From a virus: 42,972 bases of DNA. Location of the stretch: positions 1 to 42,972 of the IMG/VR virus record IMGVR_UViG_3300001681_000074; one strand, given 5' to 3'. A program made the position numbers and the translations under genes. This document shows positions 11,922 through 42,972 of this stretch, piece after piece; within the stretch, counting starts at the first letter, position 1, and every line of letters starts with the position of its first letter. The notes under the pieces were generated by a model. The model saw only the letters and a list, made by a program, of their open reading frames with translations. It was not told the origin of the DNA and ran no database searches.

Positions 11922-13459
11922 TGGCACTTCTGCGATATACAGCTAGCGCTGATACTACCATCGTCAATGCTTTTCAACCCAACCTAAGAACACGCGGAAC
12001 CGGCGCCAATATGGGTTTGGCCGACGTGATGGAAGTATTTTCAGTTTATGGAAGAGAGACCACAAGCTCCCAAGAGCTTTCTAGATTATTAATTAAGTTT
12101 CCCGTCGCAGGTATCACAGCCGACCGTACCAATAGTGTAATTCCCGCTAGCGGATCAGTTAGCTTTTATCTGAGATTGTTTAATGCAAAAACTTCAAAGA
12201 CGGTCCCGGCCGAGTACACCTTAAAAGTTTTTCCAGTTTCTCAAGATTGGCAAGAAGGCATTGGATTAGATTTAGAGGGCTATGCAGATCTCACTAAAGG
12301 CAACACCGGCGCCAACTGGATGAGCGCATCCAACACCGTCGCATGGACAGCCTCTGCAGGAGACGCAGGAGGAGCTTATCTCACCGGAACAACCGATCCT
12401 AATTTTGGTCAAACATTTAGTACCGGACTTGAAGATTTAGAAATAAATATAACCCCCCTAGTAGAGCATTGGATGGCGGACACTATTAGCAACTATGGCG
12501 TTGGAGTTCACTTAACTTCCAGCCAAGAGGCAGCATTTTCTAGCTCCACAGGATTAAACAGCGGAAGTGTGTTGAATAACACCGGCGGCGCTACCACCTC
12601 TTATTATACTAAGAGATTTTTTGCGAGAGGCAGCCAGTTTTTCTTTAAGCGCCCCGTTATCGAAGCTCGTTGGAATTCTATCGTAAAAGACGACCGAGGA
12701 GAGTTCGTTTATAGTAGCTCTTTGGCTCCTGGTTCTGCCAATCTTAATACTTTATATTTGTATAACTATGTTCGAGGCCAGTTAACTAATATTCCCGCTG
12801 TTGGTAGCACAGGCTCTGTTCTTGTTAGTCTCTACTCCGGATCCGCAAAAAACACAGGACCATCAGGCTCTAAGTTGCTTTTATATGATGGTAATACCAA
12901 TCTTACCGGCGGTTATGTATCCACAGGGATTTATTCATGTTCGGTAGCAGCCACCGCTGCAGCATCCACCTTGCAATATTTGTTTGATGTATGGCATAGC
13001 GGAAGCATTGAGTTCTTTACGGGTTCCATTAACCCATCGGTATTGAGCGCCTCACAAGCGGTTTCATCCCCGGTCCATTATTTGAATATTACAAATCTCC
13101 AAGATCGCTATCGTTCCAATGAAACGGCTCGATTTAATTTATATGTACGAGATAAGAACTGGAGCCCCACTATTTACACAGTAGCTAATACTACAGCCAC
13201 TTCGACTACCATTCACAGCGCATCGTATAAAGTCTACAGAATTCTAGATTCTTATGAAGCGGTTCCCTATGGAACCGGCAGTGAGAAGCATACGGTCTTG
13301 TCCTATGATGTCTCAGGAAATTACTTTGACTTTGATATGAACTTGCTCGATCCTGGATATATGTATGGATTTAAATTTGCATTTTATGATGCTGCTCTGA
13401 CATCGTGGGTGGAACAGCCATATGTGTTTAAATTTAGAGTAGAAGACTATGGGTATTAA
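11921..13459 (+). CDS. Tail/baseplate protein with N-terminal DNRLRE-like beta domain
   Basis: This 512-residue protein starts within the previous stop codon (TAATG). The first 170 residues resemble a DNRLRE domain: an opening DTTIVNAFQPNLRTRGTG, then SRLLIKFPV, a predicted beta strand SVSFYLRLFNA, and KVFPVSQDWQEGIG. That domain is a jelly-roll-like carbohydrate-associated fold seen in surface proteins. The rest is rich in Ser, Thr, Gly and Tyr with short strands, typical of extended virion beta proteins. No enzyme motif is visible. It lies between the gp6-like wedge gene and the giant LamG gene and overlaps the latter by 11 bases, suggesting an outer baseplate part that supports or contacts the adhesin. 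Domain assignment is by pattern only. Confidence 0.75.
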   Translation: MALLRYTASADTTIVNAFQPNLRTRGTGANMGLADVMEVFSVYGRETTSSQELSRLLIKFPVAGITADRTNSVIPASGSVSFYLRLFNAKTSKTVPAEYTLKVFPVSQDWQEGIGLDLEGYADLTKGNTGANWMSASNTVAWTASAGDAGGAYLTGTTDPNFGQTFSTGLEDLEINITPLVEHWMADTISNYGVGVHLTSSQEAAFSSSTGLNSGSVLNNTGGATTSYYTKRFFARGSQFFFKRPVIEARWNSIVKDDRGEFVYSSSLAPGSANLNTLYLYNYVRGQLTNIPAVGSTGSVLVSLYSGSAKNTGPSGSKLLLYDGNTNLTGGYVSTGIYSCSVAATAAASTLQYLFDVWHSGSIEFFTGSINPSVLSASQAVSSPVHYLNITNLQDRYRSNETARFNLYVRDKNWSPTIYTVANTTATSTTIHSASYKVYRILDSYEAVPYGTGSEKHTVLSYDVSGNYFDFDMNLLDPGYMYGFKFAFYDAALTSWVEQPYVFKFRVEDYGY

Positions 13460-16400
13460 AAAGCTTTTTGAAACTACCGATACTAGTAGAAATTATTTAG
13501 CTGAAACAACAGAAAAAGACGCTTTTCAAGATGTTGAATCCGCTGCTAATTTAAGGGCGATCAACAAAGATAAGCAACGCTTTGTCCCGCAGATAAACTA
13601 TTCTCGACCTAAAAACTTTGCTAGGTTCGGTTCTGCATATCTATATTACAAGTCTTCGATTGAAAGAGTTCTCGATTATTATCCTTACGATGGCTCTGAC
13701 GCAGAAATAAACGAATACTTTAACGATTCTCTTGACATTGACAGATATATTCTGCGTCACCTCTATCCACGTTCTACTGGTTATGCATTATTGAGCGCCG
13801 ATGGGTGGGGCTCTTTGAGCACTCTAGACTCTGGTTCTGGATATGGCCTCCCCTCCAGTTTAGAATACATTACTTTCTATGGCGGCCCCGGCACAGGGTC
13901 GGCGAATCTCTCGGGTAGTAGCTTAGTCAATCTCGGACCTAACGACTCAAATAGCAAATTTCAATATTCTAATATCTATGAAGCCTCCTCTTCCACTTCT
14001 AATCTGTATAGCCGCGCAGGTTTGCCCTTAGACTACGGCAAGGGATCGCGAGAATCAAATCTCAAATCTAATTTTGATAACGGCGTTACAATTGAATTCT
14101 GGCTGAAAAAAGACGGTTTTGATAATGACATGACTTCCAAAGAAGTTGTGTTCGATATGTGGAACACCAACGAGACAGGCAGCGATGGTGGCGACGGCGC
14201 AGCATATGGGCGAATTACCATCGAATTGACGGGCGCCACAACTTCGGAAGGGAACAATTCTCCCTTCTTATTGACATGTCAATCGGGTACTACTGGTATT
14301 TTTACTGCTTCAATTGGTCAGAACCTTACACGCGCATCCTTGGCTTCGTGGCACCACTATGGAATAGCGTTTTTTAACTCAGGAAGTGGCTTTCATACTG
14401 AATTGTATGTCGATGGAAAATTAAACCAGGAAATCATCACAGGCGAGCGAGCCGTCGCAACTATAACATTTGCCGGCGTCCCCACAGCAGATGAAAGTAT
14501 CACCATTGCTTCAACTGATGGAACATATAGAATATATACCGCAAAAGCCGACCCTGGCGTCGAAGCGCTGGCTTCCCCTCTTTTCTTTAGTATTGGTGGT
14601 ACGAATGCAGAGAGAGCAGAATCGCTTAAGGGGGCTATTGAAGGAGCTTTTGGTCACGATGGAACGATTCTTGTATCCCGGTCTGGTGCAGTATTAACCT
14701 TAATTCAATCCACCCCTGGTACTGCTGGTAATACAGATATTACAGAAGACCTCACCAATGTTACAAAAACGAATTTTGTTGGCGGAACTCTCACGACCAA
14801 TCTCGACGAAATTCCTTCCAAAAATATGGTTGGCTCGATTGGCGGGCTGTTAACGAATATCTCGGGTGGTGCCTACACTACTCCTGGAAGCTTCACCGCC
14901 ACATCTGGTTCCGGAAAGCTCTCTGGCTCCTTAGATGAGTTCCGTTTCTGGAAAGTTCGGAGAACAGCCAAAGAAATTGGAGAGCATTGGTTCTCTCAAG
15001 TAAGAGGCGGTGTGAACACAGATATTTCAAATACGACCCTTGGTATGTATTACAAATTTAACGAGGGTATAACGGGAAATCCGGCCGTTGACAGCATAGT
15101 TTTGGACTATGGCGGGAGAGTCTGCAATGGTGGTTGGGTTGGCTATGACGCGTCCTCTCGAAACACGGGTTCTGCAATCTTATCTGCGTCCGCTGCAATC
15201 AAAGAATACAACGATCCTATCGTCAGACCAACCAATCTCAAGGTTATTGATTTAAAATCTGGATTGCTGGCTACTGGATCTGCGCATGATTCCACTAATA
15301 ATGCTTCGATATTGAGTCTGACTCCCGAATGGGTGATTGAGGATCACGGAGACGATGAGGTTAACAATCTTAATATAATATCTCATATTATTGGCTCTTA
15401 TTTCGACACACTTTACCAACAGATAGAAGCAGTGCCGACGTTAAATCAGGCAAACTATCCCAGCGCTTCATACAAGCCGATGCCTTTTGCCGAACACCTG
15501 CCGCAATCCTTGGGTCTCTATACTCCGGAATTGTTCGTTGATGCGACTGTGATGGAGAAGTTCTTAAACCGAGACAAAGAGCGATTATTTTCGGGAGATC
15601 TCACCGAGACCAAAAACTTAATTTACACAAACCTTTATAATAACCTCACTAGCATTTATAAGAGCAAGGGTACTGAAAAGGCTATTAGAAATGTAATGAG
15701 ATGTTTCAGCGTCGATGAGCGATTCATGCGCTTGGGTGTGTATGCTGATAGGCAAGTATATGAACTGAAAGATAACTTAAGGCAAACTCTTGTCAACAGA
15801 AAATCATTAAACTTTAACACTACAAATAATTTGGGCGGTGTCGTATATCAACGGCTAAGCAGTTCGAATGTTAATAGTCTCGGCTACCTTTCGGGCACTT
15901 ATTCCTCAAGCGGCCCTGAAGTACGATACGGCTGCACAATCGAAGCTGATATAACCTTCCCGAGATATAACACCGAAAGAGAGATATTCGAAAGAAACTT
16001 TGCCAAAGCTTCTTTGTTTGGAGGATATTCGGTATTTACGGCTTCTGCGACGTCTCTCGCGGGCAGCGATCTAGCATTTATCACCGGCTCACAGGATCTT
16101 TTCAATTTTCAGGTTCTCGCCATTAAGTCGCAAGAAAGTGCTAAAAATGTGTCTTTCATCCTTACGTCATCCAATGATCCCCATCCGCTGCCAACATTAA
16201 CCAGTAGCCAATTTTTGAATGTGTACGACGAAACAGAGTGGAATTTCTCTGTACGTGTCAATCCTAGCATTGGTGCTTTTGCCGAGGCATTGACTGGCGC
16301 TGTTAGACAGGATGGAGCAACTTATAACTACGATGTTGTTTTCCGAGGCACCAATACCCAATTAGGGAGTATCCTAGAAACCTTTGAGGTGACAGGCACT

Positions 16401-19400
16401 ATGAGCCAAGCTGCGGGAGCCAACTTTTTAAGTGGCTCCAAGAGACTCTATGCCGGCGCCCGCAGAACAAATATCACCGGCACGCTCTTAAACAAGTCTG
16501 ATGTCTTATTCAACGGCCTGCGCTATTGGGCCAAATATCTCGATAACGGCACTTTAGATCAGCATGCCTATGATTTGGATAACATGGGCATTTCTGCCTC
16601 ATATCAGCATCTCTCTGCCTTAGATAGTGGAAGCCAAGGTTACGACATTCTGAACAACAAGACACTCTTATTAAACTGGAATTTTGAGAGTGTAACCGGA
16701 TCCGGAGTCGCCGGCGAATTCTCACAGATTATCGATATAAGCTCCGGTTCTTCCGAGATCAGAAATAACTTTGGTTGGCTTGGTAAGCAGGCGGGCTATC
16801 AGCACACTGGCTATGGTTATGGCTTCGCAGCTTCTTCGACAGACGTAGTTAGACGCCAAGCCATTAATGCTTTCAGGTTTATAGACCCAGAACAGGTTAA
16901 TGCTTCAGATATGGTGCAAATCTTGTCTGATGATGACAAGACTTTCGGCACCACCGACACCTACATGGCACCCGATTATTATTATACTCTTGAAAAGAGC
17001 TTATACAACGCAATCTCTGAAGAGATGTTGGACTTTTTTGCGGGAGTTGTTGACTTCAACAATGTGATTGGTGCGCCAGTCAATAGATATCGAGAACGAT
17101 ACAAAGATTTAGAAAAGCTCCGAGAGGTGTTCTTTAGAAAAGTCACCACTATCGCCGAAGTCGAGAGGTTTATCGGATATTATAAGTGGTTCGACGATGC
17201 AATTGCTCAAATTGTAGACCAATTAATGCCGGCATCGTCCGACTTTAAGGCCGATGTGATGAATGTGGTCGAGAGCCACGTATTAGAACGAAACAAGTAT
17301 CAAACCAAATATCCTACTTTAGAGTTTAAAATCCCAACGCTTGACGATGCGCTTAAGGGCATTGAAGCCGCTTCGTATGATTATCACCAAGGATCTTCTG
17401 TAGAGCCAGGATCCCCGCGTAACACTAAGCTTCGTTATAAGTTCTGGCATGAGCGCGCCAAACGAACGGCACCAGAGATTTCCTCTAGCTACCCAGCAGT
17501 CGACACACAACGCGAGATTTATCGCAAAGTTATTAATTCAGCCCCCCGACTGACCCAGAGCCTCAATATTGCATGGACCCAAGACAATACTAGTTATGAT
17601 CTCGATCCCTACGCGGCCCGTAATTTTGGAAAGACACAACAGCTTAAGGTAGATCCTCCTGTTGGGCGCCACCGCGTAATTAAGGGCGGCGTAAACTTTG
17701 CCCATGGCAAGAATATTATGTACGTATATAATGCCCTCTATCCCTTTGGGCCCATTAATACCGATGGGGGCAGATTTATTCCCCTCAACGTCTTATTTAC
17801 TCCGGCTGAAGATCTAGTGCACAACGTAAAATTCAAGATGCTGGATTCTAATCCCACCGGCAAGAAACGGCAACGAGTTGTGAAGGTGCAGCATGGTCGC
17901 GACTGGGAAGGTGGCCTAGGCTATAAAAATGTTAAGTCAACATATGGTTATCCTTTCAATCTGGTTAGCGGAAATGTGACCACTGGCTATAATGCGGCCA
18001 TCAGCACAGGTTTTATGACCGGCGTTATTCTCACCAACCTGCACAATGATGTATATGGTCCCGATATGGAAGTTCCCATGCAGGGCCCATTCACTGATTA
18101 TGCTGTAGGGGGCCACCAATCTCGCCATGTCCGCGTGAACACCGGATCGGATACTTACCTCAATCGTCCTGAAGCCTGGAAGTTTGCGCCAGGAGTGTGC
18201 GAGACTACCAACTCCGGCGCCATCGGAATGGTTTCGGTAGATTACCCGTATCCAGATCTAGGAAAGGAGGGCTCCAATGCGGTTGGGCAAATAGATGTCT
18301 CTGGCCACCCCGGAGTAGGATCTACTGTAACAATTAATGATGGTGAAACGGAAACTACATTTGAAGTAGAATTTACAAATACAAAAGCAACCAACTTTCC
18401 GACTTCTGACTGCCCCAGCATCCAGGTCGGGGGACTGGCTGCACCTAACGCAGACGAAATTTATGAATTAGATCAGTGGACAATTTCGGGGTGGATACGT
18501 CTTGACCCCGCCGGCGGAGGGAGCCGTACAATCTTTCAAGCCGGCGCCACCGGCCAAACTCGCAATTTCTTGGTAAGATCGAATGCTAAATTAAGATACA
18601 GTTGCGAATGGTCAGATACTGTAGCGGGAGGCGGCAGCCATGAGCACTATTGGGAAGCCACAACTGCTTTATCGGATTCAACATGGTACCACGTAGCATT
18701 GGTATACGATGGGACTACAGGCAGCAGCGATCCTGTGTTTTATATTGACGGCGCCGTGGATGCTATTTCGGCTGAATATTCTCCCGCACCATCAGGCTCT
18801 CTAGTGGCGTTCGATGCCGGCGCCATCGCCCGTGTTGGCGGGTCCCAGGGCCAATGCGGAACCCTTAGATTCGAGGGAGATTTAGATGAAGTCTCTATTT
18901 GGCAACTAACGATGAGCGCCGATCAGGTAACCGAACTTTATGCGTCGGGTTCGGCTCTCAATTTATTTAAGCATTCTCTTTATACAGGCGACAGCGCTAA
19001 TCTATATTCATGGTGGCGTATGGGAGATGATCCTAGAGATGCTATTGATGGCACAGGGACATATGTCGCTGGAACCAATTCAATTATTGATCAGACTGGC
19101 AGAGCTAATGGAAATCCATGGGATGCCGTCACCACCACTTTCGATACGGATGTCGCCTCTGTATATCAATCAGTAGCTCCCGGCAACGTCGGGTGGACCC
19201 AAGCTTATACCTCTGCCGATGCTGCTGAAAACCTCCTTACTGCTGTTAATAATCAATCAGCCTTTGGAATTTCTGCCACCGGCCGCTCCGGCGGTGCTTT
19301 TGTAGTAACAAATACCAAATTTGGCACTGCAACGTCCACGCGCAATAAACTCCGCGGCGCCCAGGGCAACATTGCTATATCTTCGACTAAATTAGGCCCC

Positions 19401-22400
19401 GCCGCGGCCGCCACAGCATACGGACTCAGCGGAGGCACAGATCCTCAGATCATGAACTTTAATGCTCCCCGAGCGACCTATTATCGCGATATGATTGCGA
19501 AAGCTCCCGTTAATATCAAGAATATCCAATTGCGCTCTGGTTCTACAATTCTTGGAAACTATAGGCAGAATTATGAAGTGGTCAGCACAGTGGGAGCTTT
19601 TTCTAATCCCCGCAGATTTGTAAAAAACCCAATCTCAATGCCGGCCACGATAACTGATCGCCCATTGTTATCCGCATCCGATGTGGTGCGTACTTATTTG
19701 AACCTACACAGAGGTTCCAGCAGCGACCCTGGCATTTTCACCGGGAGCCATTTTAATTATGAGCTTGAATATGCGCCCATCGTTAACACCGGTTCCGACA
19801 ACCAATCAATCATTATTTCACGATTCGGTGCACCCGGCGGTGTTGAGACCATGACTCGCGGCTATCAAGACTTCCGCGCATCTGAATTCTCGGTATACAA
19901 CACGCTTAATAATCGCAATCTCCCTGTCATTCGTCCTTCACAAGGGCCTTCCGACACGGTGAGCGAGACTACGGGCATACGCGTTTCTGATATAAACTCA
20001 GAAGATTATGGTTTATATTCACATGCAGCCCGCCATGCAGCCCGCTTCGGCCGCGACTCCCTCGCAGTCGCCGATTATGATTTAAACTCCACACTTTATA
20101 TGATAGGCGAGAGTAGCATGCATGCTTATACGTCTAACAGTTCTCTACAAGCATGGTGGAGATTAAACACAGACGTTTCTACTCACGGAGATGTGGCTGA
20201 TAGCAGCGGCAACGGCCGCGCCGGAACCTTTGATGCCGCTGGCGATAGGCCCGGCATTTCGAGAGAAACTCCGGGCAATAAAATCCAGGTATCTACATGT
20301 GAGTTTGATGGCACTGACGATCAAGTAAATGTTGGCACAGCCGCTACGTGGCAGGCTATAATAGGGACTGGCGGAACGTCGAAGATGACATTTTCGACTT
20401 GGATCAACTTTTCTTTCATTAGTGGCTATGATAATATATTCTGGTTTGGAGAGAGCCCTAATGGCCACGCCGTTCTGTATTATACGAATTCTAGCGACAG
20501 GTGGACCTTTAGAACTTCGTGGGGCGGCTCCAACTTTTCATGGCAGGCCGACCACGCTTTAACAGTGGATACGTGGTACCACCTCGCAGTAACCTATAAT
20601 GCTGGAGCTACTGGCAACGATCCTGTTTTGTATATAAATGGTGTAGCTGTTTCATGGGCATCAGAGCCGACTGTGACCGGAGTATGGGGCGGCATTCAAA
20701 CCGATGCATGCTATATTGGTGCCTCTCCTGACGCGGCCTACCCCTTCACGGGCTATTTGGCCGATTTCGCTGTTTGGGATTCAATCTTAACAGCAGACGA
20801 AATGAAAGCTCTCTACAACGCAACCAAGGGCGCCTTCCTAAACTTAAACCCCGCAGGCAATTTCCCCGGCGCATCCCTTAACCAACGTGCTGCCATGTTC
20901 AAGGTGAACAGAAATCCCGCTGGCCGTGTCAAGACTTTCCTTTCTCACTCGGGAATCGAGATTTTTGAACAATCTGCACAATACGACAACTTTAATGTTC
21001 AACATACAATTCCTCGAATGGACAAGCAATATGCTTGGGTAACCAGTTCGATAGTCCTGGGAGATGACTTCACAGAGGTAGACTATAGATATTATGGCCG
21101 TGCCCAAACATGGGGAGCACTCGCAGGGCTTTACCAAGCCTTGGGCCCCGATGGGGAGCCTTTATATTCCACATTCTTTGATTATGTGATGGAGAGTAAC
21201 GTTTCCACCGATTACGATCCGCAATCCCCGTCAGGAGAGAATGTTGTGAATGGGGGCTTTGCCCAAGGTGCCCGCATGAACACCTACACCATCGATCCCA
21301 TCAATTCTGGTAGTACAAACCTTCTTGGCTTCAATGCCACCAGCAGTGGTGACTCGTATATAAGTGCAACACCGATGACCGTACTAGGAGGGGTGAATGT
21401 TATAACCCAGAGCACCACCAGCGATTGGGGAATCATTCCTCAAATCAGTAGCTCTGCGACGTATCTTAATCTGTTACTGACACGCCGGCGCGCCACTTAT
21501 GGATGGACTTGGCTAGCCACGCGCCAGCAACAGCACCCCATTCTTCTTAAGGAGAGAGATAATCAAAAGATTTCGGTGGTAACTTCTTCGAACGATTCAA
21601 TCATGACTTATAGACTGGCACCGCTTTCAAACCGTGGACGACCGGTCATCATGAACTTTGACGTTGCCGGTACAAACAACACAACCATCAAGATAACTCA
21701 CAACAATGAGCAATTATGGTTTAATGATCCGAACCTTGATAACGTGGCAGACTTCGATCCCGAAGAGACCATCACGGCTTACGAGCAATTGCTGGGAATT
21801 ATCCGGGCCCCAAGCTCTCCCTATAATCTTAACTGGGTAGCATACTCAGAAAACCTTTTCCCGTCATTGAGAAATGAATTCTCTGGCGGAATCATTAGCA
21901 AGCCGACCTATAACAACAAATACTGGCGAGACTCCAAAGCAAACCGAGTAACCGAAGGCAATACAATCGCCAACTCTTATGGTATCCGCGTGAGCCAGAG
22001 TGCATGGCCTCTCGATCCGCCAGAAGACTTCTTGACAAGAACAGTTCTGCCAAGTGGAACCTTTAATGGCCCAGGAAATGATAGTATGTGGGACGAAGAT
22101 GGTGCCGGTGTCCTCGGGGGCTACGATTATCCTGCTGATTGGACCTCGGCCGGCGGGGAAGGTGTTGAACCTTGGGCTAATAATAATGTATTGAAATTTA
22201 ATCCCAAATCAGGAGAATTGCAAAATGGTTATGTAATGGCCAATTTATCTTCTTCATGGGGAGGAACAGGCTATGGATTTTTCCATCAAGCCGCCACCAC
22301 GGGTAAATTTCTTGATCCAAGTTATGGTGTTTCTGCGCTCCGGTATTTGTTTCCCGGCGCACTCTACGCCAGAAAGCACATGCTTTCTTCCCCATCTTCC

Positions 22401-25400
22401 TTGGTCTCTCCCACGGGCGTTAGGATTGCTGAAACTGGAAGTCTGCCCCGCACAGGCTCATGGGAAATGTCAAGTAGTTTTGAGGCCGGCGCCGGCGAGG
22501 CTGTCTGGGAAGCCGGCCAACAGGCAGGAATTATCGTTCAGACCCCCGAAGTTTATTCTTTGACGGCTAGCTTTACTGCACCCAATACTGCGTCTTATGC
22601 GGTGAGCACTTATACTGGCGTCAGTTCGCTGCAGGGTTGGTGGAGATTGAATGCTGATGTGTCGACAGAGGGAGATGTGGCTGATAGTAGTGGCAAGGGA
22701 AGGACTGGCACGTTTGGTGGTTCCTCTAATCGGCCGATTTTTTCTACAGACAATCCTAGTACCATAATTCAACAAAATAGTTGTTTGTTTGATGGCACCA
22801 ATGATCAAATAAAGATTGGTAGTGCTGCCACATGGGATGCTATCATAGGAAAAACGACTGTCGGCGGAACTGCTCAAATGACTCTCGCAGGCTGGGTGAA
22901 TTTAAATGCACATGGAGGCGCCGCAGAACAATTTATTGATTTTGGAAACGATAACGCAATATTTTTTAGAAATGCCGCCGGCCGCTTAGGTTTCCAAACC
23001 GAATGGAATAGCGGCGCACAGGCATGGTGGCTAGGAACAGATCTGGATGACTATGATGGTACATGGATACACGTTGCTGTGACTTATGATGCTACTTCTC
23101 CCGATAACAATCCCCAATTATATCTTAACGGCCTCCCCGACACTACCAGTGGCCCAACCGGTACCGGTCCTACCAACACTTGGGACGGCATCACCATATC
23201 AGAGTGTTATCTAGGGGGTTCTGGTGGAGATGTTGATGGGCTGATGGCTGACTGGGCTGTATGGAACTCTATCCTTTCTGCCGACGAAATCAAAGCCATC
23301 GCCAACGCGCGCAATAACCCCAATCTCGGAAGCCCGTCTCAGTTCCAATTGAGCGCCTCCGCACCATGGTTTGACCAGTATTCAGATTACAACTATGAAA
23401 TGAAACTTCTCGCAAAGGACTATTCCATTGTTCCAGAATTCAGAATTAGTGATCACGTCGAAGACTACCTGAAATACGGTCTGTTCAATCCAAACAAGTT
23501 CGACTGGTGCACCATCCCGGAAACCGGCATCAATAGCTCCACTTCGTCCTTCTATCTCGATTACTCCAACTCCGAATTCATGCACGACTTCTTGAGAGTC
23601 AAAAACGAAACTCTATTAAACGCCAAAGAGATTAAACTAGTCTGCAGCGCAGCGATCCGCTTTAATCCCTATAAGGGCTTTTATCCCGTTCAACGAACAC
23701 TTCAAATGGTGGGAGCATTTTCCAGTTCTTATATGCATGGGTTTACCGGACGACACGCTTGGTCCGATAGCACCGGAGCGCCCGGGCCATCTCAACTCCT
23801 AGAAAATTCTGCATCTATGCTTCGCCCCGGAGTAATTCCTTTTCATTCTCCCGGAATTCTTTATAATTCTATTAAGTCGGGAATCGCTGTAGATTATCCT
23901 ATCATTACAACCCCGGAGAGAGCAATAAGAACGTGGGTATATCAAGATGATCAACCGGCCGGCGACCCGACCGGTCCCTCTTCGGCATCGGTGGAAGGGG
24001 CTGGAAGATCTGGATTTTCAAATAATTTATATGCGGTTACGTGTCCTGGTACGGGGACCGTCCATAGCTCGTTCACCACGCCGTTGACTCCTGATTCGTG
24101 GCGTGGAACTGGAAGTTGGTTTAATGAAAGATTGCCTTTTGAGGCAGCTATCACTCCCGAGATTTACTTAGATAACAAAACTTTTGTAGATTTAGAATCC
24201 CATACTTCCGGAGCAGTACTGGTTTCGGCCTCGTGGAACGGCGCCGCAGCAGCACCCACTACTTATACGCGAATGGCTCGGAACTTTTTTGGAGAAGTAG
24301 GAAACTTTTTCCTCAAAGATGCAGGATTTACTAAGCTTAAATCTGCCGCCCTGCCTTCGGATATACAATTCGACTCTGGTTCGGTTTATGGAGCACGACT
24401 GAAGATAAGAAGATCAGTTACGGGATCCCGGACTTATGAATATGATGGTGCAACAGCGCCTCAATTTACTCGATTAGACACTGGTTCGCATTATTATTTT
24501 GCTGCCGGCGTGACTAGTTCTTTCGGTATGTACGGCGGCCGCGGCCTCTTTAGTGCCTCTGTTGGGTCGTCCGGGGTCCAGCCCGGGGCCAACTGCCAGT
24601 GGATGACAGGAACCTTCCCTCTTCCCCAAGATCCCCACAGTAATCCCTCCTTTAAAGAAACGTTTACGATGTACAGCCGCCCGAGTGCGTTTGGTCCCGA
24701 TATCGCTGGGCGCCCAATGATGAACCAAGGAACGGTGAGAAGCGTCCTAGGATCCTTGCCCTCCGTATGTCGTGGTTGGCCATCAGCTATAGGCAATAAA
24801 GGAATCCTGCTCGGCGCCGAGGTGAAGAAGGGTGATGGTTATGTAGCCACCAATTATCCTTATGATTCTAGTTCTTATTATGCGCGTCATATGGCTACTC
24901 ATTCGGGAGTGATGGATTGTTTTAACGGTTTTAACTGGGCCTATACGCCGCCTTATTATCATGGAGAGTCCTGGGCCGATTTCGTGTTCCGGCCCACCAC
25001 TGGTAAATCTTATGATCTAGATACGATTCTTGCCGAGACTAAAATAAGATATTGGCGCGCCGACCCAGGTTGGGCCGGCAACTCTGGTTCGAATTTTGGC
25101 CAGAGGGGAATCATTTGTCTTAATGGCAAGACCCCCCTCATTCCATCCTTTAATCACGGGACTGGCGCCCTAACTTTCGCCCCTTATGATGGTGCTGCAA
25201 TCAATCAGAATGCAATGCAATTAAGTGCTAGTGTGGATCTGTTTGGAATTGAGACGGTACCGTTAATTGAGTTGGATATCCACGGCAAACCAGTATTTAC
25301 GCGAAACGAAGTTCAAGGAAAGCGTTGGGTAATTCAGCCCAAGTTTGAAACTCCAATGCTGAACTTTAATGATGAAGGCATTCATCCCATCACAAAACTT

Positions 25401-26678
25401 AATGGTAACTTAACTCTCCCCGCCAATTTCTCTGCATCAGTCCCCCGCGGTATGTGGCATCAATTCGGAACTATTCCGGAAGATCCCGACAAGGGAGTTT
25501 TCCTAGAGATGGGAGATATCCCCACACAATGGCTTCAATATCATTATGAATGTATTAACACTGGTAGTATGTATAATGATGGAAATATAGCATCCGGCCA
25601 GCGCCTGCACGAAGAGATGCGCTCCCTATCAGATGTGGTTGGTTTTAACAGCAACACACCCAGCGCACGCTTAGGCGAACTGGCAGATTCCCGAACGATT
25701 CGAGAGGCTGTGGTGGCTATCCCATATATTATTGAAAACGTAGAGGTAACTGACCCGGCCACCTTAGAAGCTAACTGGACGAGCCTCTCTCGCAAGAAGT
25801 TTATTGAAATTCCCGCAGAACGCTATGCAGCCGCCAGCGCAGCCACCGATGGAAGCGAGACTGGAGATTCGCTAGCTGCCGCCGGAGAGTCTATCCGCAA
25901 GCTTATACAGAAGATGGGCCGCTATATCTTACCTCCGCAGTTTGACTTTATCAACAACGAAAGCATCACTCCCATGGTTATGTACATGTTTGAGTTTGAA
26001 TACACCTTTGATAAAGACGATCTCTCCTACATGTGGCAGAATTTAGCTCCGAGAGACTCAAAAGAAATCAAACTAGAATACAAGTCAGTCGCCCATGAAT
26101 TAATGGACACAGAACTTCTTAACGAAAGCATTATAATGGACAATGCAAATTTGCGTTGGATGGTCTTCAAGGTTAAGCAGAAGTCTCAAGTAGATTATTA
26201 TGACCTAAGAGTCCAACAACTCGGACAAATAGAGGCCCCAGACTTAACTGAAGAATCAGACAGTGCTTATAAGATCGAATACAACTGGCCATATGACTTC
26301 CTGTCTTTCGTTGAAATGATTAAGATTGATGCAGAAGTTCTATTTACTTCAGATGGCGCCGCAGAAACGCGGCAAGTTCTAGGAGAAGGAGAATTTTCAT
26401 TACCAAGCAATATTGTTGCGCCAGAAATAGTCGCACAAGTTGCGACTACGCTGCAACAGGGTCCACTCACACCCGATTCGATTGGAGAAACTATCATAGA
26501 AGCAGTTTCTAATATACCTCTACAGCAGGGCAATCTGGTAAGACAGAAAGCGGTCACCCGCCAACCACGCCGCAGGCGCCCCGGCGTATTGAAAAAAGCT
26601 AAAACCGGCCCTTACTCAAAGAAGAAAACGGGGTCCAAGACATCTACAAAAAAGAGCAGCAAGAATAAAAAGAAGTAA
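13449..26678 (+). CDS. Giant 4409-residue tail/baseplate protein with four LamG-type domains
   Basis: This is a single frame of 4409 codons. The N-terminal 120 residues are Tyr-rich (for example SAYLYYKSSIERVLDYYPYD). LamG-like lectin domains lie at residues about 210-527, 1671-1888, 2231-2461 and 3059-3287, each with a WYH/WHH strand and a DFxVW- or DExxxW-type final strand. A second beta-rich module (start pattern I-x-x-x-G-x-P then T-I-x-D-G) is inserted into LamG 1 (residues about 332-455). Conversely, its two halves (about 1610-1662 and 1891-1970) flank LamG 2. Residues about 725-760 contain IYKSKGTEKAIRNVMRCF, which resembles the tail protein I / TIGR02242 motif. The last 43 residues contain 19 Lys/Arg and no acidic residue. 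It probably forms large peripheral baseplate or fibre structures binding host glycans. Start: ATG overlapping the upstream gene by 11 bases. The function is inferred from its domains and neighbours. Confidence 0.88.
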   Translation: MGIKKLFETTDTSRNYLAETTEKDAFQDVESAANLRAINKDKQRFVPQINYSRPKNFARFGSAYLYYKSSIERVLDYYPYDGSDAEINEYFNDSLDIDRYILRHLYPRSTGYALLSADGWGSLSTLDSGSGYGLPSSLEYITFYGGPGTGSANLSGSSLVNLGPNDSNSKFQYSNIYEASSSTSNLYSRAGLPLDYGKGSRESNLKSNFDNGVTIEFWLKKDGFDNDMTSKEVVFDMWNTNETGSDGGDGAAYGRITIELTGATTSEGNNSPFLLTCQSGTTGIFTASIGQNLTRASLASWHHYGIAFFNSGSGFHTELYVDGKLNQEIITGERAVATITFAGVPTADESITIASTDGTYRIYTAKADPGVEALASPLFFSIGGTNAERAESLKGAIEGAFGHDGTILVSRSGAVLTLIQSTPGTAGNTDITEDLTNVTKTNFVGGTLTTNLDEIPSKNMVGSIGGLLTNISGGAYTTPGSFTATSGSGKLSGSLDEFRFWKVRRTAKEIGEHWFSQVRGGVNTDISNTTLGMYYKFNEGITGNPAVDSIVLDYGGRVCNGGWVGYDASSRNTGSAILSASAAIKEYNDPIVRPTNLKVIDLKSGLLATGSAHDSTNNASILSLTPEWVIEDHGDDEVNNLNIISHIIGSYFDTLYQQIEAVPTLNQANYPSASYKPMPFAEHLPQSLGLYTPELFVDATVMEKFLNRDKERLFSGDLTETKNLIYTNLYNNLTSIYKSKGTEKAIRNVMRCFSVDERFMRLGVYADRQVYELKDNLRQTLVNRKSLNFNTTNNLGGVVYQRLSSSNVNSLGYLSGTYSSSGPEVRYGCTIEADITFPRYNTEREIFERNFAKASLFGGYSVFTASATSLAGSDLAFITGSQDLFNFQVLAIKSQESAKNVSFILTSSNDPHPLPTLTSSQFLNVYDETEWNFSVRVNPSIGAFAEALTGAVRQDGATYNYDVVFRGTNTQLGSILETFEVTGTMSQAAGANFLSGSKRLYAGARRTNITGTLLNKSDVLFNGLRYWAKYLDNGTLDQHAYDLDNMGISASYQHLSALDSGSQGYDILNNKTLLLNWNFESVTGSGVAGEFSQIIDISSGSSEIRNNFGWLGKQAGYQHTGYGYGFAASSTDVVRRQAINAFRFIDPEQVNASDMVQILSDDDKTFGTTDTYMAPDYYYTLEKSLYNAISEEMLDFFAGVVDFNNVIGAPVNRYRERYKDLEKLREVFFRKVTTIAEVERFIGYYKWFDDAIAQIVDQLMPASSDFKADVMNVVESHVLERNKYQTKYPTLEFKIPTLDDALKGIEAASYDYHQGSSVEPGSPRNTKLRYKFWHERAKRTAPEISSSYPAVDTQREIYRKVINSAPRLTQSLNIAWTQDNTSYDLDPYAARNFGKTQQLKVDPPVGRHRVIKGGVNFAHGKNIMYVYNALYPFGPINTDGGRFIPLNVLFTPAEDLVHNVKFKMLDSNPTGKKRQRVVKVQHGRDWEGGLGYKNVKSTYGYPFNLVSGNVTTGYNAAISTGFMTGVILTNLHNDVYGPDMEVPMQGPFTDYAVGGHQSRHVRVNTGSDTYLNRPEAWKFAPGVCETTNSGAIGMVSVDYPYPDLGKEGSNAVGQIDVSGHPGVGSTVTINDGETETTFEVEFTNTKATNFPTSDCPSIQVGGLAAPNADEIYELDQWTISGWIRLDPAGGGSRTIFQAGATGQTRNFLVRSNAKLRYSCEWSDTVAGGGSHEHYWEATTALSDSTWYHVALVYDGTTGSSDPVFYIDGAVDAISAEYSPAPSGSLVAFDAGAIARVGGSQGQCGTLRFEGDLDEVSIWQLTMSADQVTELYASGSALNLFKHSLYTGDSANLYSWWRMGDDPRDAIDGTGTYVAGTNSIIDQTGRANGNPWDAVTTTFDTDVASVYQSVAPGNVGWTQAYTSADAAENLLTAVNNQSAFGISATGRSGGAFVVTNTKFGTATSTRNKLRGAQGNIAISSTKLGPAAAATAYGLSGGTDPQIMNFNAPRATYYRDMIAKAPVNIKNIQLRSGSTILGNYRQNYEVVSTVGAFSNPRRFVKNPISMPATITDRPLLSASDVVRTYLNLHRGSSSDPGIFTGSHFNYELEYAPIVNTGSDNQSIIISRFGAPGGVETMTRGYQDFRASEFSVYNTLNNRNLPVIRPSQGPSDTVSETTGIRVSDINSEDYGLYSHAARHAARFGRDSLAVADYDLNSTLYMIGESSMHAYTSNSSLQAWWRLNTDVSTHGDVADSSGNGRAGTFDAAGDRPGISRETPGNKIQVSTCEFDGTDDQVNVGTAATWQAIIGTGGTSKMTFSTWINFSFISGYDNIFWFGESPNGHAVLYYTNSSDRWTFRTSWGGSNFSWQADHALTVDTWYHLAVTYNAGATGNDPVLYINGVAVSWASEPTVTGVWGGIQTDACYIGASPDAAYPFTGYLADFAVWDSILTADEMKALYNATKGAFLNLNPAGNFPGASLNQRAAMFKVNRNPAGRVKTFLSHSGIEIFEQSAQYDNFNVQHTIPRMDKQYAWVTSSIVLGDDFTEVDYRYYGRAQTWGALAGLYQALGPDGEPLYSTFFDYVMESNVSTDYDPQSPSGENVVNGGFAQGARMNTYTIDPINSGSTNLLGFNATSSGDSYISATPMTVLGGVNVITQSTTSDWGIIPQISSSATYLNLLLTRRRATYGWTWLATRQQQHPILLKERDNQKISVVTSSNDSIMTYRLAPLSNRGRPVIMNFDVAGTNNTTIKITHNNEQLWFNDPNLDNVADFDPEETITAYEQLLGIIRAPSSPYNLNWVAYSENLFPSLRNEFSGGIISKPTYNNKYWRDSKANRVTEGNTIANSYGIRVSQSAWPLDPPEDFLTRTVLPSGTFNGPGNDSMWDEDGAGVLGGYDYPADWTSAGGEGVEPWANNNVLKFNPKSGELQNGYVMANLSSSWGGTGYGFFHQAATTGKFLDPSYGVSALRYLFPGALYARKHMLSSPSSLVSPTGVRIAETGSLPRTGSWEMSSSFEAGAGEAVWEAGQQAGIIVQTPEVYSLTASFTAPNTASYAVSTYTGVSSLQGWWRLNADVSTEGDVADSSGKGRTGTFGGSSNRPIFSTDNPSTIIQQNSCLFDGTNDQIKIGSAATWDAIIGKTTVGGTAQMTLAGWVNLNAHGGAAEQFIDFGNDNAIFFRNAAGRLGFQTEWNSGAQAWWLGTDLDDYDGTWIHVAVTYDATSPDNNPQLYLNGLPDTTSGPTGTGPTNTWDGITISECYLGGSGGDVDGLMADWAVWNSILSADEIKAIANARNNPNLGSPSQFQLSASAPWFDQYSDYNYEMKLLAKDYSIVPEFRISDHVEDYLKYGLFNPNKFDWCTIPETGINSSTSSFYLDYSNSEFMHDFLRVKNETLLNAKEIKLVCSAAIRFNPYKGFYPVQRTLQMVGAFSSSYMHGFTGRHAWSDSTGAPGPSQLLENSASMLRPGVIPFHSPGILYNSIKSGIAVDYPIITTPERAIRTWVYQDDQPAGDPTGPSSASVEGAGRSGFSNNLYAVTCPGTGTVHSSFTTPLTPDSWRGTGSWFNERLPFEAAITPEIYLDNKTFVDLESHTSGAVLVSASWNGAAAAPTTYTRMARNFFGEVGNFFLKDAGFTKLKSAALPSDIQFDSGSVYGARLKIRRSVTGSRTYEYDGATAPQFTRLDTGSHYYFAAGVTSSFGMYGGRGLFSASVGSSGVQPGANCQWMTGTFPLPQDPHSNPSFKETFTMYSRPSAFGPDIAGRPMMNQGTVRSVLGSLPSVCRGWPSAIGNKGILLGAEVKKGDGYVATNYPYDSSSYYARHMATHSGVMDCFNGFNWAYTPPYYHGESWADFVFRPTTGKSYDLDTILAETKIRYWRADPGWAGNSGSNFGQRGIICLNGKTPLIPSFNHGTGALTFAPYDGAAINQNAMQLSASVDLFGIETVPLIELDIHGKPVFTRNEVQGKRWVIQPKFETPMLNFNDEGIHPITKLNGNLTLPANFSASVPRGMWHQFGTIPEDPDKGVFLEMGDIPTQWLQYHYECINTGSMYNDGNIASGQRLHEEMRSLSDVVGFNSNTPSARLGELADSRTIREAVVAIPYIIENVEVTDPATLEANWTSLSRKKFIEIPAERYAAASAATDGSETGDSLAAAGESIRKLIQKMGRYILPPQFDFINNESITPMVMYMFEFEYTFDKDDLSYMWQNLAPRDSKEIKLEYKSVAHELMDTELLNESIIMDNANLRWMVFKVKQKSQVDYYDLRVQQLGQIEAPDLTEESDSAYKIEYNWPYDFLSFVEMIKIDAEVLFTSDGAAETRQVLGEGEFSLPSNIVAPEIVAQVATTLQQGPLTPDSIGETIIEAVSNIPLQQGNLVRQKAVTRQPRRRRPGVLKKAKTGPYSKKKTGSKTSTKKSSKNKKK
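20022..20045 (+). repeat. 12-bp tandem duplication inside the giant gene
   Basis: CATGCAGCCCGC occurs twice in direct succession (20022-20033 and 20034-20045). It stays in frame and encodes HAARHAAR within the giant protein, just before LamG domain 3. It is probably a replication slippage product. Confidence 0.9.
20139..20829 (+). repeat. LamG unit 3, diverged duplicate of the unit at 22623-23310
   Basis: This codes for residues about 2231-2461 of the giant protein. It opens with SSLQAWWRLNTDVSTHGDVA and matches unit 4 through nearly the whole length, including AATW-x-AIIG, a WYHLAVTY/WIHVAVTY strand, LYINGV/LYLNGL and the closing DFAVWDSILTADE/DWAVWNSILSADE. The DNA is also visibly similar near the start, for example GGAGATGTGGCTGATAG in both. 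Confidence 0.85.
22623..23310 (+). repeat. LamG unit 4, diverged duplicate of the unit at 20139-20829
   Basis: This codes for residues about 3059-3287, starting SSLQGWWRLNADVSTEGDVA. It shares order, length and key motifs with unit 3, about 830 residues earlier. The region between the two units is not duplicated as far as I can see, so this looks like copying of a module rather than of the whole segment. Confidence 0.85.
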
Positions 26679-40398: not shown

Positions 40399-40974
40399 AT
40401 GGTACTCGGAGTAGATATCTCCACCAGCATCACTGGCTTTGCAGTCGTGACTGATAATGTGCTGGTATATTATGATTCAATTGATTTGCGAAAATACAAC
40501 GGAGTCTTTGCAAAGACAATTGCAATGAAAGAAAAGCTGATGGACATTTATGAAATGTATCAGCTTGATAATGATGAGAAACTTCAAGGCGATTCTGAAT
40601 TTCCTATCGAACACATTTACATCGAGCAATCGCTTCATATGTTTATGGGAGGCAAATCTTCAGCAAAGACTCTCTCAACTTTAACTCGATTCAATGGCAT
40701 TGTCTCATGGCTTCTCTTCGAACTATTTGAGATAGAGCCACAGTTTATTGGCGCCTCCTCCGCACGAAAGCGCGCCGGCATTAAAGTTCCGAGAGGAGAG
40801 AAAGCAAAAAAAGTTGTTTTGAAATATTTGCTTGACAACGAGCCCACTTTCAAGGTACAATATACTCATAAGGGCAACCCCAAACCCGAATCGTTTGATC
40901 GGGCGGATGCAATTATAATCGCGCGCGCCGGAGATATAATTGAGCGAGAAAAAGAAACACAAGATTCTGTGTGA
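40399..40974 (+). CDS. RuvC-like Holliday junction resolvase
   Basis: This is a 191-residue RNase H-fold nuclease that probably resolves branched DNA intermediates before packaging, a role T4 gives to the unrelated endonuclease VII. Acidic catalytic residues are visible in the expected order: D6 in GVDISTSITGFAV, E76 in IYIEQS, and D167/D170 in FDRADAIIIARAG. The conserved TG after the first aspartate and the late D-x-x-DA motif are RuvC/YqgF-like features. Length is close to RuvC (about 170 residues). TAGGAT overlaps the preceding stop and serves as ribosome binding site. The gene overlaps the primase gene by 35 bases. Together with the primase it marks the switch from structural genes to replication genes. 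Other RNase H-fold nucleases cannot be fully excluded. Confidence 0.85.
   Translation: MVLGVDISTSITGFAVVTDNVLVYYDSIDLRKYNGVFAKTIAMKEKLMDIYEMYQLDNDEKLQGDSEFPIEHIYIEQSLHMFMGGKSSAKTLSTLTRFNGIVSWLLFELFEIEPQFIGASSARKRAGIKVPRGEKAKKVVLKYLLDNEPTFKVQYTHKGNPKPESFDRADAIIIARAGDIIEREKETQDSV
40930..40933 (+). promoter_or_regulatory. Ribosome binding site supporting a TTG start for primase
   Basis: GGAG lies six bases before the TTG at 40940. No ATG or GTG occurs in the primase frame upstream of the zinc-binding cysteines, so this site fixes the start inside the resolvase gene. Confidence 0.7.
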
Positions 40975-41875
40975 CATATTAGGATATTCACATACCAATG
41001 GCCCAGAATCTCTTTTCAAATGTCCGGTATGCGAGCATCACAAGCTTAAGCTCTCTGTTAACCTTCGCAAGAATGTTTTTAAGTGTTGGGTATGTGATTA
41101 TCGTGGCCGTAATATTCGTAGGTTGGTTCGTCGTTTTGGGACGTTTGTTCATTTACAGCGATGGGAAGAACTTACGGGCCGCCACGATATTGAGAGATTT
41201 GCTGAGCTATTTGATGATAGCCCTCGTCTGGACCCTCAGCCCGCTCTGGATCTTCCAGAAGAATTTATAAGTCTGACCGGGGTAATCCCAGCCACAGGTG
41301 TCTACGCTCACAAATATTTGCATTCGCGTGGCATAACAAAAGCTGATATTCTTAAGTGGAAGATAGGTTATTGTTTCGGTGGTGAGTATCGCAATCGCAT
41401 TATCATCCCGTCTTTTAATGATGACGGAGACGTCAGCTATTTCATGGCGAGATCCTATAACGGAGATTCATATAAGTATAAGAATCCGAGAGCATCCAAA
41501 GACATTGTATTCAATGAGTTATATATTGATTGGAACGAAGACTTAACAATTGTCGAAGGAGTTTTTGATGCTATTACAGCAGGAAACAGCGTACCTATAT
41601 TGGGATCTTCATTGCGGCGCGGCTCCGAACTCATCCGCAAAATTGTATACAACGATACCCCCGTCTACGTCGCCCTCGATCCCGACGTCCAAGAAAAAGA
41701 AAACAAGATTATTGAAACTCTTCTTAGATATGATGTCGAACTTTATAAGATCGACGTAGATGGCTATGAAGACGTCGGTTCCATGCCTAGAGAGGTTTTC
41801 CAAGAACGAAAACAAAAAGCGAGATTTATAGATAGAGAAGACTATTTATTGATGAATTTACTCTCGGCAGTGTAG
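40940..41875 (+). CDS. 61: DNA primase, DnaG/gp61-like
   Basis: This 311-residue primase makes RNA primers for lagging-strand synthesis; T4 gp61, its functional counterpart, has about 340 residues. A zinc ribbon is complete: C28-x2-C31 and C49-x2-C52, with WVCDYRG after it. The TOPRIM part shows E206 in VEGVFDAI and D247/D249 in ALDPDV, the metal-binding acids. Residues between carry the RNAP-like basic stretch (YRNRIIIPSFNDDGDVSYF). The predicted start is a TTG with GGAG six bases upstream, because no ATG precedes the zinc motif. The gene overlaps the resolvase by 35 bases, implying coupling. There is no helicase domain; a separate gp41-like helicase should lie outside the window. No truncation is evident, but the C-terminal helicase-binding part appears short. 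Confidence 0.88.
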   Translation: MSEKKKHKILCDILGYSHTNGPESLFKCPVCEHHKLKLSVNLRKNVFKCWVCDYRGRNIRRLVRRFGTFVHLQRWEELTGRHDIERFAELFDDSPRLDPQPALDLPEEFISLTGVIPATGVYAHKYLHSRGITKADILKWKIGYCFGGEYRNRIIIPSFNDDGDVSYFMARSYNGDSYKYKNPRASKDIVFNELYIDWNEDLTIVEGVFDAITAGNSVPILGSSLRRGSELIRKIVYNDTPVYVALDPDVQEKENKIIETLLRYDVELYKIDVDGYEDVGSMPREVFQERKQKARFIDREDYLLMNLLSAV

Positions 41876-41885
41876 GAGACCCCCG

Positions 41886-42173
41886 ATGAAAGTAACCAAA
41901 TCACAACTTAAGCAGATTATTCAAGAAGAGCTTGAAGCCGTAGTAGCAGAAGCCGAACGCACTGCGAAGGGGAACATCACTCAAGATACCCGCGAAAAAC
42001 ATGCCACGGTGGGAAAAGACAAATTTCCTATTTTTGATAAGAAGTCGGCAGAAGCTGCGATAGATTTACGCGGCCACGCCCCCGAAGCAGATAGGGCGAA
42101 GATTATCAATAAGGCAGCGAAATACGCACCAGCAGCAGCAAAGAAAGCACGCGAAGCTGATAAGAAAGACTAA
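41886..42173 (+). CDS. Small basic Ala-rich protein with capsid-targeting-like N-terminus
   Basis: This is a 95-residue protein with AGGAGA six bases before the ATG; the site overlaps the primase stop. The N-terminus, MKVTKSQLKQIIQEEL, matches position by position the start of the next protein (L8, I11, I12, E14, E15, L16). In T4, internal proteins carry a short N-terminal capsid-targeting sequence that the gp21 protease cuts after an L/I-x-E; here I12-Q13-E14 would fit. The remaining 81 residues are Lys/Ala-rich with a C-terminal AAKYAPAAAKKAREADKKD, compatible with DNA binding. A packaged internal protein is therefore possible, but this is inference. I think similar N-termini occur in other marine phage small proteins, from memory only. 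An unrelated short protein is the alternative. Confidence 0.78.
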   Translation: MKVTKSQLKQIIQEELEAVVAEAERTAKGNITQDTREKHATVGKDKFPIFDKKSAEAAIDLRGHAPEADRAKIINKAAKYAPAAAKKAREADKKD

Positions 42174-42175
42174 GA

Positions 42176-42556
42176 ATGCGCGTTAAAAAGTCTGACTTGA
42201 TGAATATTATCAAAGAAGAGCTTAATGAGTTCAACATAGGCAATTATTCGCAGGCCGCCGGCGGCGACCTTCGAGCGGCACAATTAGCCAACGATATGCC
42301 CATAGAACCCGGGCCCGATCTTCCTGGATTAACAATAGTAAACCTCCTGGCAGAACTCCAAACCTTATTGGAAGAATGGAAAGAAAAAGACTATCCATCT
42401 GACGAAGCGCGATATGAAGGATATTATGCCGATATCGCCGAAGTAGTCGATAGATATGATCCGTGCGCACACCCAGGCGATTCATGTGAAGACGCTCACC
42501 CTGATCAGTCCCACGAAGAATGCATGAAGGATCAAGAAGAGAGCGACGAAGAATAA
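42176..42556 (+). CDS. Small acidic protein with the same N-terminal motif and a Cys/His cluster
   Basis: This is a 126-residue protein starting two bases after the previous stop. MRVKKSDLMNIIKEEL repeats the N-terminal pattern of the 41886 protein, with I12-K13-E14 in the same place. After that the two differ: this one is acidic, with a Leu-rich helix (VNLLAELQTLLEEWKEKD), a Tyr/Asp stretch (YEGYYADIAEVVDRYD) and a C-terminal DPCAHPGDSCEDAHPDQSHE cluster of two Cys and three His followed by another Cys, which might bind a metal. It ends in DQEESDEE. No family is recognised. It is the last gene before a sigma70-like promoter. Shared N-termini on a basic and an acidic protein suggest a common targeting signal rather than common function. 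Confidence 0.75.
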   Translation: MRVKKSDLMNIIKEELNEFNIGNYSQAAGGDLRAAQLANDMPIEPGPDLPGLTIVNLLAELQTLLEEWKEKDYPSDEARYEGYYADIAEVVDRYDPCAHPGDSCEDAHPDQSHEECMKDQEESDEE

Positions 42557-42614: not shown

Positions 42615-42972
42615 ATGAAGTTTGCACATATAAGTGATACTCATATCAAAAATTTGAAGTATCATTATGAATATCGAATCATATTCGAGCAGTTGTATGA
42701 AACACTGCGAGAAGAGAAGGTCGATTACATTATACACTGTGGGGATATAGCCCACACCAAGACACAGATCTCACCAGAGTTTGTTGAGATGTGTTCTGAT
42801 TTTTTTCGCAGTCTCGCTGAGATTGCACCAACATATATTATTCTAGGAAACCATGACGGCAACCTAAAGAACAGCAGTCGCCAAGATGCACTGACACCGA
42901 TTGTCGATGCGCTTGATTTACCGACACTGCGCCTATTAAAGAATTCTGGCGAGGAACATTTGACAGATGATT
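42615..42972 (+). CDS. 47: Recombination nuclease subunit, gp47/SbcD-like, cut by the window end
   Basis: The first 119 codons of a calcineurin-type metallophosphoesterase are present; the rest lies beyond the window. Metal-binding motifs are in order: D8 and H10 in HISDTH, D44 in HCGDI, and N79/H80 in LGNHDGN. This is the Mre11/SbcD/T4 gp47 nuclease pattern. In T4, gp47 works with the ATPase gp46 to resect DNA ends during recombination-dependent replication, so a gp46-like gene is expected downstream. The start has CGGAGG at 42605-42610, four bases before the ATG, and a sigma70-like promoter further upstream. It is too short here to exclude another phosphoesterase, but a typical SbcD start is a close match. 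Confidence 0.88.
   Translation, partial: MKFAHISDTHIKNLKYHYEYRIIFEQLYETLREEKVDYIIHCGDIAHTKTQISPEFVEMCSDFFRSLAEIAPTYIILGNHDGNLKNSSRQDALTPIVDALDLPTLRLLKNSGEEHLTDD

Follow-up and report, generated by a model that had tools for sequence, protein, structure and literature searches.

Two adjacent genes near the end of a 42,972-base virus record, a fragment of a phage genome that we analysed whole and call the window, encode small proteins (A and B) that share an N-terminal leader, and this leader recurs as a portable module on many mutually unrelated small proteins of uncultured T4-like phages. We suggest, at a probability of roughly 0.78, that the leader is a capsid-targeting propeptide that is cut off by a gp21-type S77 protease. 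The case for A and B individually rests on the whole family.

In phage T4, only a handful of proteins bear a capsid-targeting sequence, and the internal proteins IPI-III are anti-restriction proteins. T4 leaders are 10-20 residues long (PMC5694885), and the T4 capsid-targeting sequence alone is enough to package foreign proteins (PMC9026906, PMC5694885), the first ten residues of IPIII sufficing for incorporation into the head (PMC9026906). The T4 protease gp21 has the specificity L/I-X-E (PMC9026906), and distinct GmrSD restriction enzymes are blocked by IPI-III (PMC12373910).

Table 1. Features of genes A and B and of their neighbours; positions are those of the window.
Feature	Position	Strand	Description or basis
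Gene A	41886..42173	+	95 aa, small, basic, tagged
Gene B	42176..42556	+	126 aa, small, acidic, tagged
AGGAG ribosome-binding site of gene A	41874..41878	+	Sequence
Leader of A, residues 1-22 (MKVTKSQLKQIIQEELEAVVAE)	41886..41951	+	Predicted propeptide end V20-A-E22/A23; cleavage inferred from site statistics
Payload of A, ~73 aa, basic	41952..42170	+	Relatives, alignment
Leader of B, residues 1-18 (MRVKKSDLMNIIKEELNE)	42176..42229	+	Predicted cleavage L16-N-E18/F19
Payload of B, 108 aa, acidic	42230..42553	+	Relatives, pI
Cys/His cluster of B (CAHPGDSCEDAHPDQSHEEC)	42464..42523	+	Alignment of 5 sequences
DnaG-type primase, upstream neighbour	40940..41875	+	phrog_47, E 9e-42
SbcD/Mre11-type phosphoesterase, downstream neighbour, truncated at the end of the window	42615..42972	+	PF00149, E 2e-14

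Only two bases separate genes A and B, and the range given in the first-pass annotation (to 42240) ends 21-22 codons inside B. Over residues 1-16 the two proteins are identical at ten positions, exactly those which that annotation had listed (M1, V3, K5, S6, L8, I11, I12, E14, E15 and L16), and its description of the remainders as unlike, basic in one protein and acidic in the other, holds as well: they are unrelated, with a pI of 9.7 for A from residue 23 and 4.1 for B from residue 19. A helix is predicted over residues 5-23 of A. Five of six distinct relatives of the A payload found elsewhere are also tagged, that is, begin with the leader, and the spacer between leader and payload varies in length; a 72-aa relative (L007) has no tag. 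All four aligned relatives of B are tagged (L015, L152, L005 and L164), and at L005 relatives of A and B are again adjacent. In the alignment of five B sequences H99, C104, H108 and H113 are invariant, and this cluster may form a metal site. In Pfam no family matched A or B, in PHROGs A matched at chance level only, and Foldseek searches with models of both proteins returned nothing below E 1; these AlphaFold models reach modest confidence (pLDDT 72 and 62), and we therefore claim no fold for either protein. Among named phages, neither a DNA search nor a search with the leader alone gave a match. The ORFs of the window include T4-like baseplate proteins, and its primase is also present in other tagged contigs. 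Between baseplate-like and tail genes lies a single 4,409-aa ORF (13449-26678), relatives of which occur in tagged contigs.

The leader has the consensus MKITKSQLKQIIKEEL plus about six residues, ~20-22 residues in total. With A as the query, IMG/VR yielded 19 loci, many of them aligned over residues 1 to ~19-30 only, and dozens of unrelated small ORFs in these loci begin with MKITKSQLKQIIKEEL. A strict DNA pattern of the motif was found in at least 120 stretches of viral contigs and, across 257 billion bases of genome sequence from bacteria and archaea, in 10 stretches; the two bacterial or archaeal bins rich in tags both contain an S77 protease. From the IMG/VR loci and 20 whole contigs a set of tagged ORFs was drawn, and the 283 with E14 fall into 215 tail clusters that have no detectable similarity to one another, so that other proteins with the same start, which the first-pass annotation had suggested seeking, are plentiful. 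Conservation of E14 does not simply reflect ascertainment, because 84 of the 94 tagged ORFs outside the search pattern keep it. When the N-termini of 2,532 proteins were clustered all against all in an unbiased way, this leader ranked first, shared by 112-134 tail clusters depending on the threshold. Scored with a matrix derived from 213 other tail clusters, A reached 45.9 bits and B 23.6 bits; the score of B was matched by 12 of 550,604 internal protein segments, and the internal matches listed at this level include obvious extra copies of the tag. The likeness of A and B is not a matter of chance. Residues 6-16 alone reached at least 10 bits in 106 of 2,446 N-termini versus 0 of 1,519 internal control stretches.

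Copies of the tag are also seen inside proteins or at the C-terminus (L016, L058, L061, L089, G007 (947) and G009 (1723)), some of these proteins being tagged at the N-terminus too, and they may represent gene fusions or cargo with two tags. Cleavage at the C-terminus is also known for T4 Alt. A tagged 257-aa ORF lies in the chromosome of a WOR-3 MAG (L271; CP070664.1, ~2.077 Mb), where it perhaps belongs to a prophage or a misassembled phage.

Within one phage, tags on unrelated payloads share synonymous codons at 0.59-0.62 versus 0.44 expected, which suggests that leaders are copied between genes of the same phage. The same sharing could indicate that the common start is an element acting at the DNA level, such as a recombination site or translation leader, or a remnant of recent gene duplication, with no function in the protein. 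We regard this as highly improbable, given that the protein motif is maintained from phage to phage although ~40% of synonymous sites vary even inside one genome, that E14 persists outside the seed pattern, and that the register of the site described below shifts with hydrophobic-x-E preserved.

Conservation of the leader drops after residue ~22, and ahead of that point a second hydrophobic-x-E is common: 152 of 208 leaders (73%) have [ILVMF]-x-E with its E at residues 18-23, versus 54±6 when residues 16-26 are permuted and 82±5 (maximum 98 in 500 shuffles) when columns are shuffled among proteins. The remaining ~27% have no second site in this interval. The glutamate is at residue 21 in 26-28% of leaders and at residue 22 in a like proportion, more rarely at residue 18, and further downstream the pattern occurs at ~2% per position. 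When D, Q, K, N, R, S or T was substituted for E in the site test, the 208 leaders showed no excess. The signal was replicated in two arrays outside the defining set (24 of 39 leaders versus 12.3±2.1), a count reached by 0 of 1,000 shuffles. Family statistics thus place a gp21-type L/I-x-E site where the leader ends. Similar to this second site, a conserved LLxE, followed by S, A or T, stands near residue 62 of the major capsid protein in these phages, likely where its propeptide ends.

The first-pass annotation had put a gp21-type cut after residue 14. As a general cut site we reject E14, residue 15 being E in 258 of 283 leaders, and because the hydrophobic-x-E signal falls at residues 18-23 we predict that A is cut after E22 and B after E18. 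The site in A (VAE22) has V, not L or I; that in B is LNE18, with F, not A, S or G, as its P1' residue. E14 may still serve as the cut site in the minority of leaders whose residue 15 is small. This proposal is partly post hoc: a second site is less frequent among such leaders, with P 8e-5 in the arrays that prompted the test and P 0.19, not significant, in the main set alone. An amphipathic helix was considered for the leader and dropped, the hydrophobic moment not being significant (P ~0.18).

Of the large tagged contigs, 19 of 24 encode peptidase S77 (PF03420), as do 13 of 24 shorter ones (32 of 48 overall) and 26 of the 27 tagged contigs with Gp23, the single exception having only an edge-cut capsid gene. 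In 8 of 18 contigs the immediate neighbours of S77 include tagged ORFs, which can thereby hold the same sites as the prohead core genes 67, 68 and 22 of T4, a likeness seen in position; most tagged genes, unlike those of T4 gp67, gp68 and gp22, are located away from the surroundings of S77. One contig that shares the payload of A (G002) has two tagged genes ~8 kb before S77. The phage of the window very probably has an S77 protease, because S77/Gp23 contigs are collinear with the window: of the 24 window ORFs, 19 have a match in one of these contigs (G016) and 18 in another (G019). Among the ORFs of the window fragment neither head genes nor a protease could be identified, so that the prohead protease for which the first-pass annotation had proposed looking is present in most tagged contigs and in the collinear relatives but not in the fragment itself. 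The reading of the N-terminus as capsid-targeting-like in that annotation is supported by the portability of the leader, the gp21-type site and the co-occurrence with S77. Presence of S77 does not in turn imply the tag, because T4, Syn19, HTVC008M, RM378 and C48C1 all have S77 and lack the leader. The regions upstream of tagged genes and of capsid genes showed no enrichment of the T4 late promoter TATAAATA. In several phages (G002, G006, G009 and others) an ORF of ~140 aa soon after S77 has a tag-like start, MKKSELKxIIKECVKEVIFEEG or similar; this conserved ORF is possibly a core protein or an ancestor of the leader.

A and B have primase and SbcD as their neighbours and are not located between portal and major capsid genes, and the tagged genes of several relatives likewise sit among replication genes and not in a head operon. 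This placement, and the want of a known domain in most payloads, would suit a leader that docks on some other phage or host component, such as the replisome, RNA polymerase or the nucleoid, with no relation to the head, the E-rich pattern then reflecting helix composition. We consider this unlikely, since hydrophobic-x-E is more frequent than after column shuffling, which preserves the composition of each position, only E is enriched, tagged genes adjoin S77 as noted above, and a second, T4-like leader occurs in the same gene clusters.

This second leader, MKxLxExWRxFLxE, is the second most shared N-terminus among the 2,532 proteins (30-37 unrelated tail clusters), and in 54 of 73 cases its E stands exactly three residues past the aromatic, as in MKTYQEFIAE of T4 IPII/IPIII. 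Its carriers are G002, G003, G009, G017 and others, and at L265 (1194-5239) several genes with it come after a tagged gene. Smaller leader classes are ARRKNTRRIDPRYFLNE and MKHLRQYIRQILLTE. The former is seen on six unrelated proteins (G010, G019, G020, G023 and G024). Tagged genes can form long arrays: at L295/L296 (NHDW01000006.1, 183-213 kb) ~17 are consecutive, ~15 genes with the other leader MKHLRQYIRQILLTE come next, and further tagged genes follow. This 306-kb contig, binned as Methylococcaceae, has an S77 protease and is likely a misbinned jumbo phage. Another array, of ~16 tagged genes, lies at L298 (PBIO01000025.1, 53-64 kb) on a contig binned as Halobacteriovorax.

Domains found in the payloads of these leaders include a Zeta-toxin-type kinase, PAP2, HD, GNAT acetyltransferase and NUDIX, together with a weak ADP-ribosyltransferase (ART-like) match; most payloads, including A and B, have no known domain. 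Payloads with enzyme domains fit injected enzymes better than scaffold. This bears on the alternative that tagged proteins reach the head without being injected, as fillers of the prohead core or scaffold that are degraded by the protease or retained in the head. Tagged ORFs can indeed occupy the positions of T4 core genes 67/68, and in some phages the conserved ORF that follows S77 has a tag-level score, but more than 200 unrelated payloads, long runs of tagged genes and enzyme domains are unlike scaffold, and we hold the filler explanation to be improbable.

The literature on comparable leaders led to work on T4, phiKZ, SPN3US and P1; proteomics covering a tagged protein did not turn up, for immuto (see below) either. 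Like T4 IPI, IPII, IPIII and Alt, the tagged proteins are unrelated small proteins with a short, predicted N-terminal propeptide that ends in a gp21-type site, and most tagged contigs encode an S77 protease. Unlike the T4 capsid-targeting sequence, the leader has a different sequence, spans ~22 residues and is borne by far more proteins; packaging, cleavage and injection, which are proven for the T4 internal proteins, we infer for the tagged ones. The first leader gave no match in T4 at E 0.1, and only the second leader class resembles the T4 sequence. Because the first leader is unlike IPII/IPIII in sequence, A and B are not filed in the T4 family: they are placed as working like T4 internal proteins, not as family members. 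The inner-head and ejection proteins of phiKZ and SPN3US are similar in having head-protein propeptides cut past x-x-E by a relative of gp21, several of which, unlike the tagged leaders, exceed 100 residues; the phiKZ cleavage motif is S/A-X-E (PMC9026906), and SPN3US gp53 and gp54 have common N-termini (PMC5694885). The closest cultured phage found is Flavobacterium phage immuto, which has S77 and several genes (L283-L286) with a short leader, MKKSQLRQIIKEAL, that scores with the same matrix; it is two residues shorter at the N-terminus, with A replacing E15. One short-leader gene of immuto (record 113188) matches DUF5661 and, weakly, RegB. The motif string was not found in the open-licence papers searched, and it may have been described elsewhere. 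Capsid-targeting sequences are already known; as far as those papers show, what is new here is the sequence of the leader, the scale on which it is used and the occurrence of several leader classes side by side.

We propose that the leader would dock many unrelated small proteins on the prohead core of a T4-like phage, and that during head maturation the S77 prohead protease would cut past hydrophobic-x-E (E22 of A, E18 of B), freeing the payload inside the head before it fills with DNA. The payloads would then most likely exit with the DNA at the next infection. Such injection, argued by analogy, is plausible and less certain than targeting and cleavage, and an anti-defence role for A or B, modelled on T4 IPI-III, is a guess. 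We give about even odds to the broader idea of a general head-loading code, in which several interchangeable leaders, some internal or C-terminal, would mark large sets of preloaded effectors, with arrays of up to ~17 consecutive tagged genes in jumbo phages. If such a code exists, much of the injected proteome would be readable from sequence. With a leader that recurs on hundreds of unrelated proteins, candidates for injection could be listed from sequence for uncultured phages, and the arrays suggest tens of payloads in some of these phages. The leaders would also supply new packaging tags, and the question of what phages inject with their DNA would become testable by proteomics.
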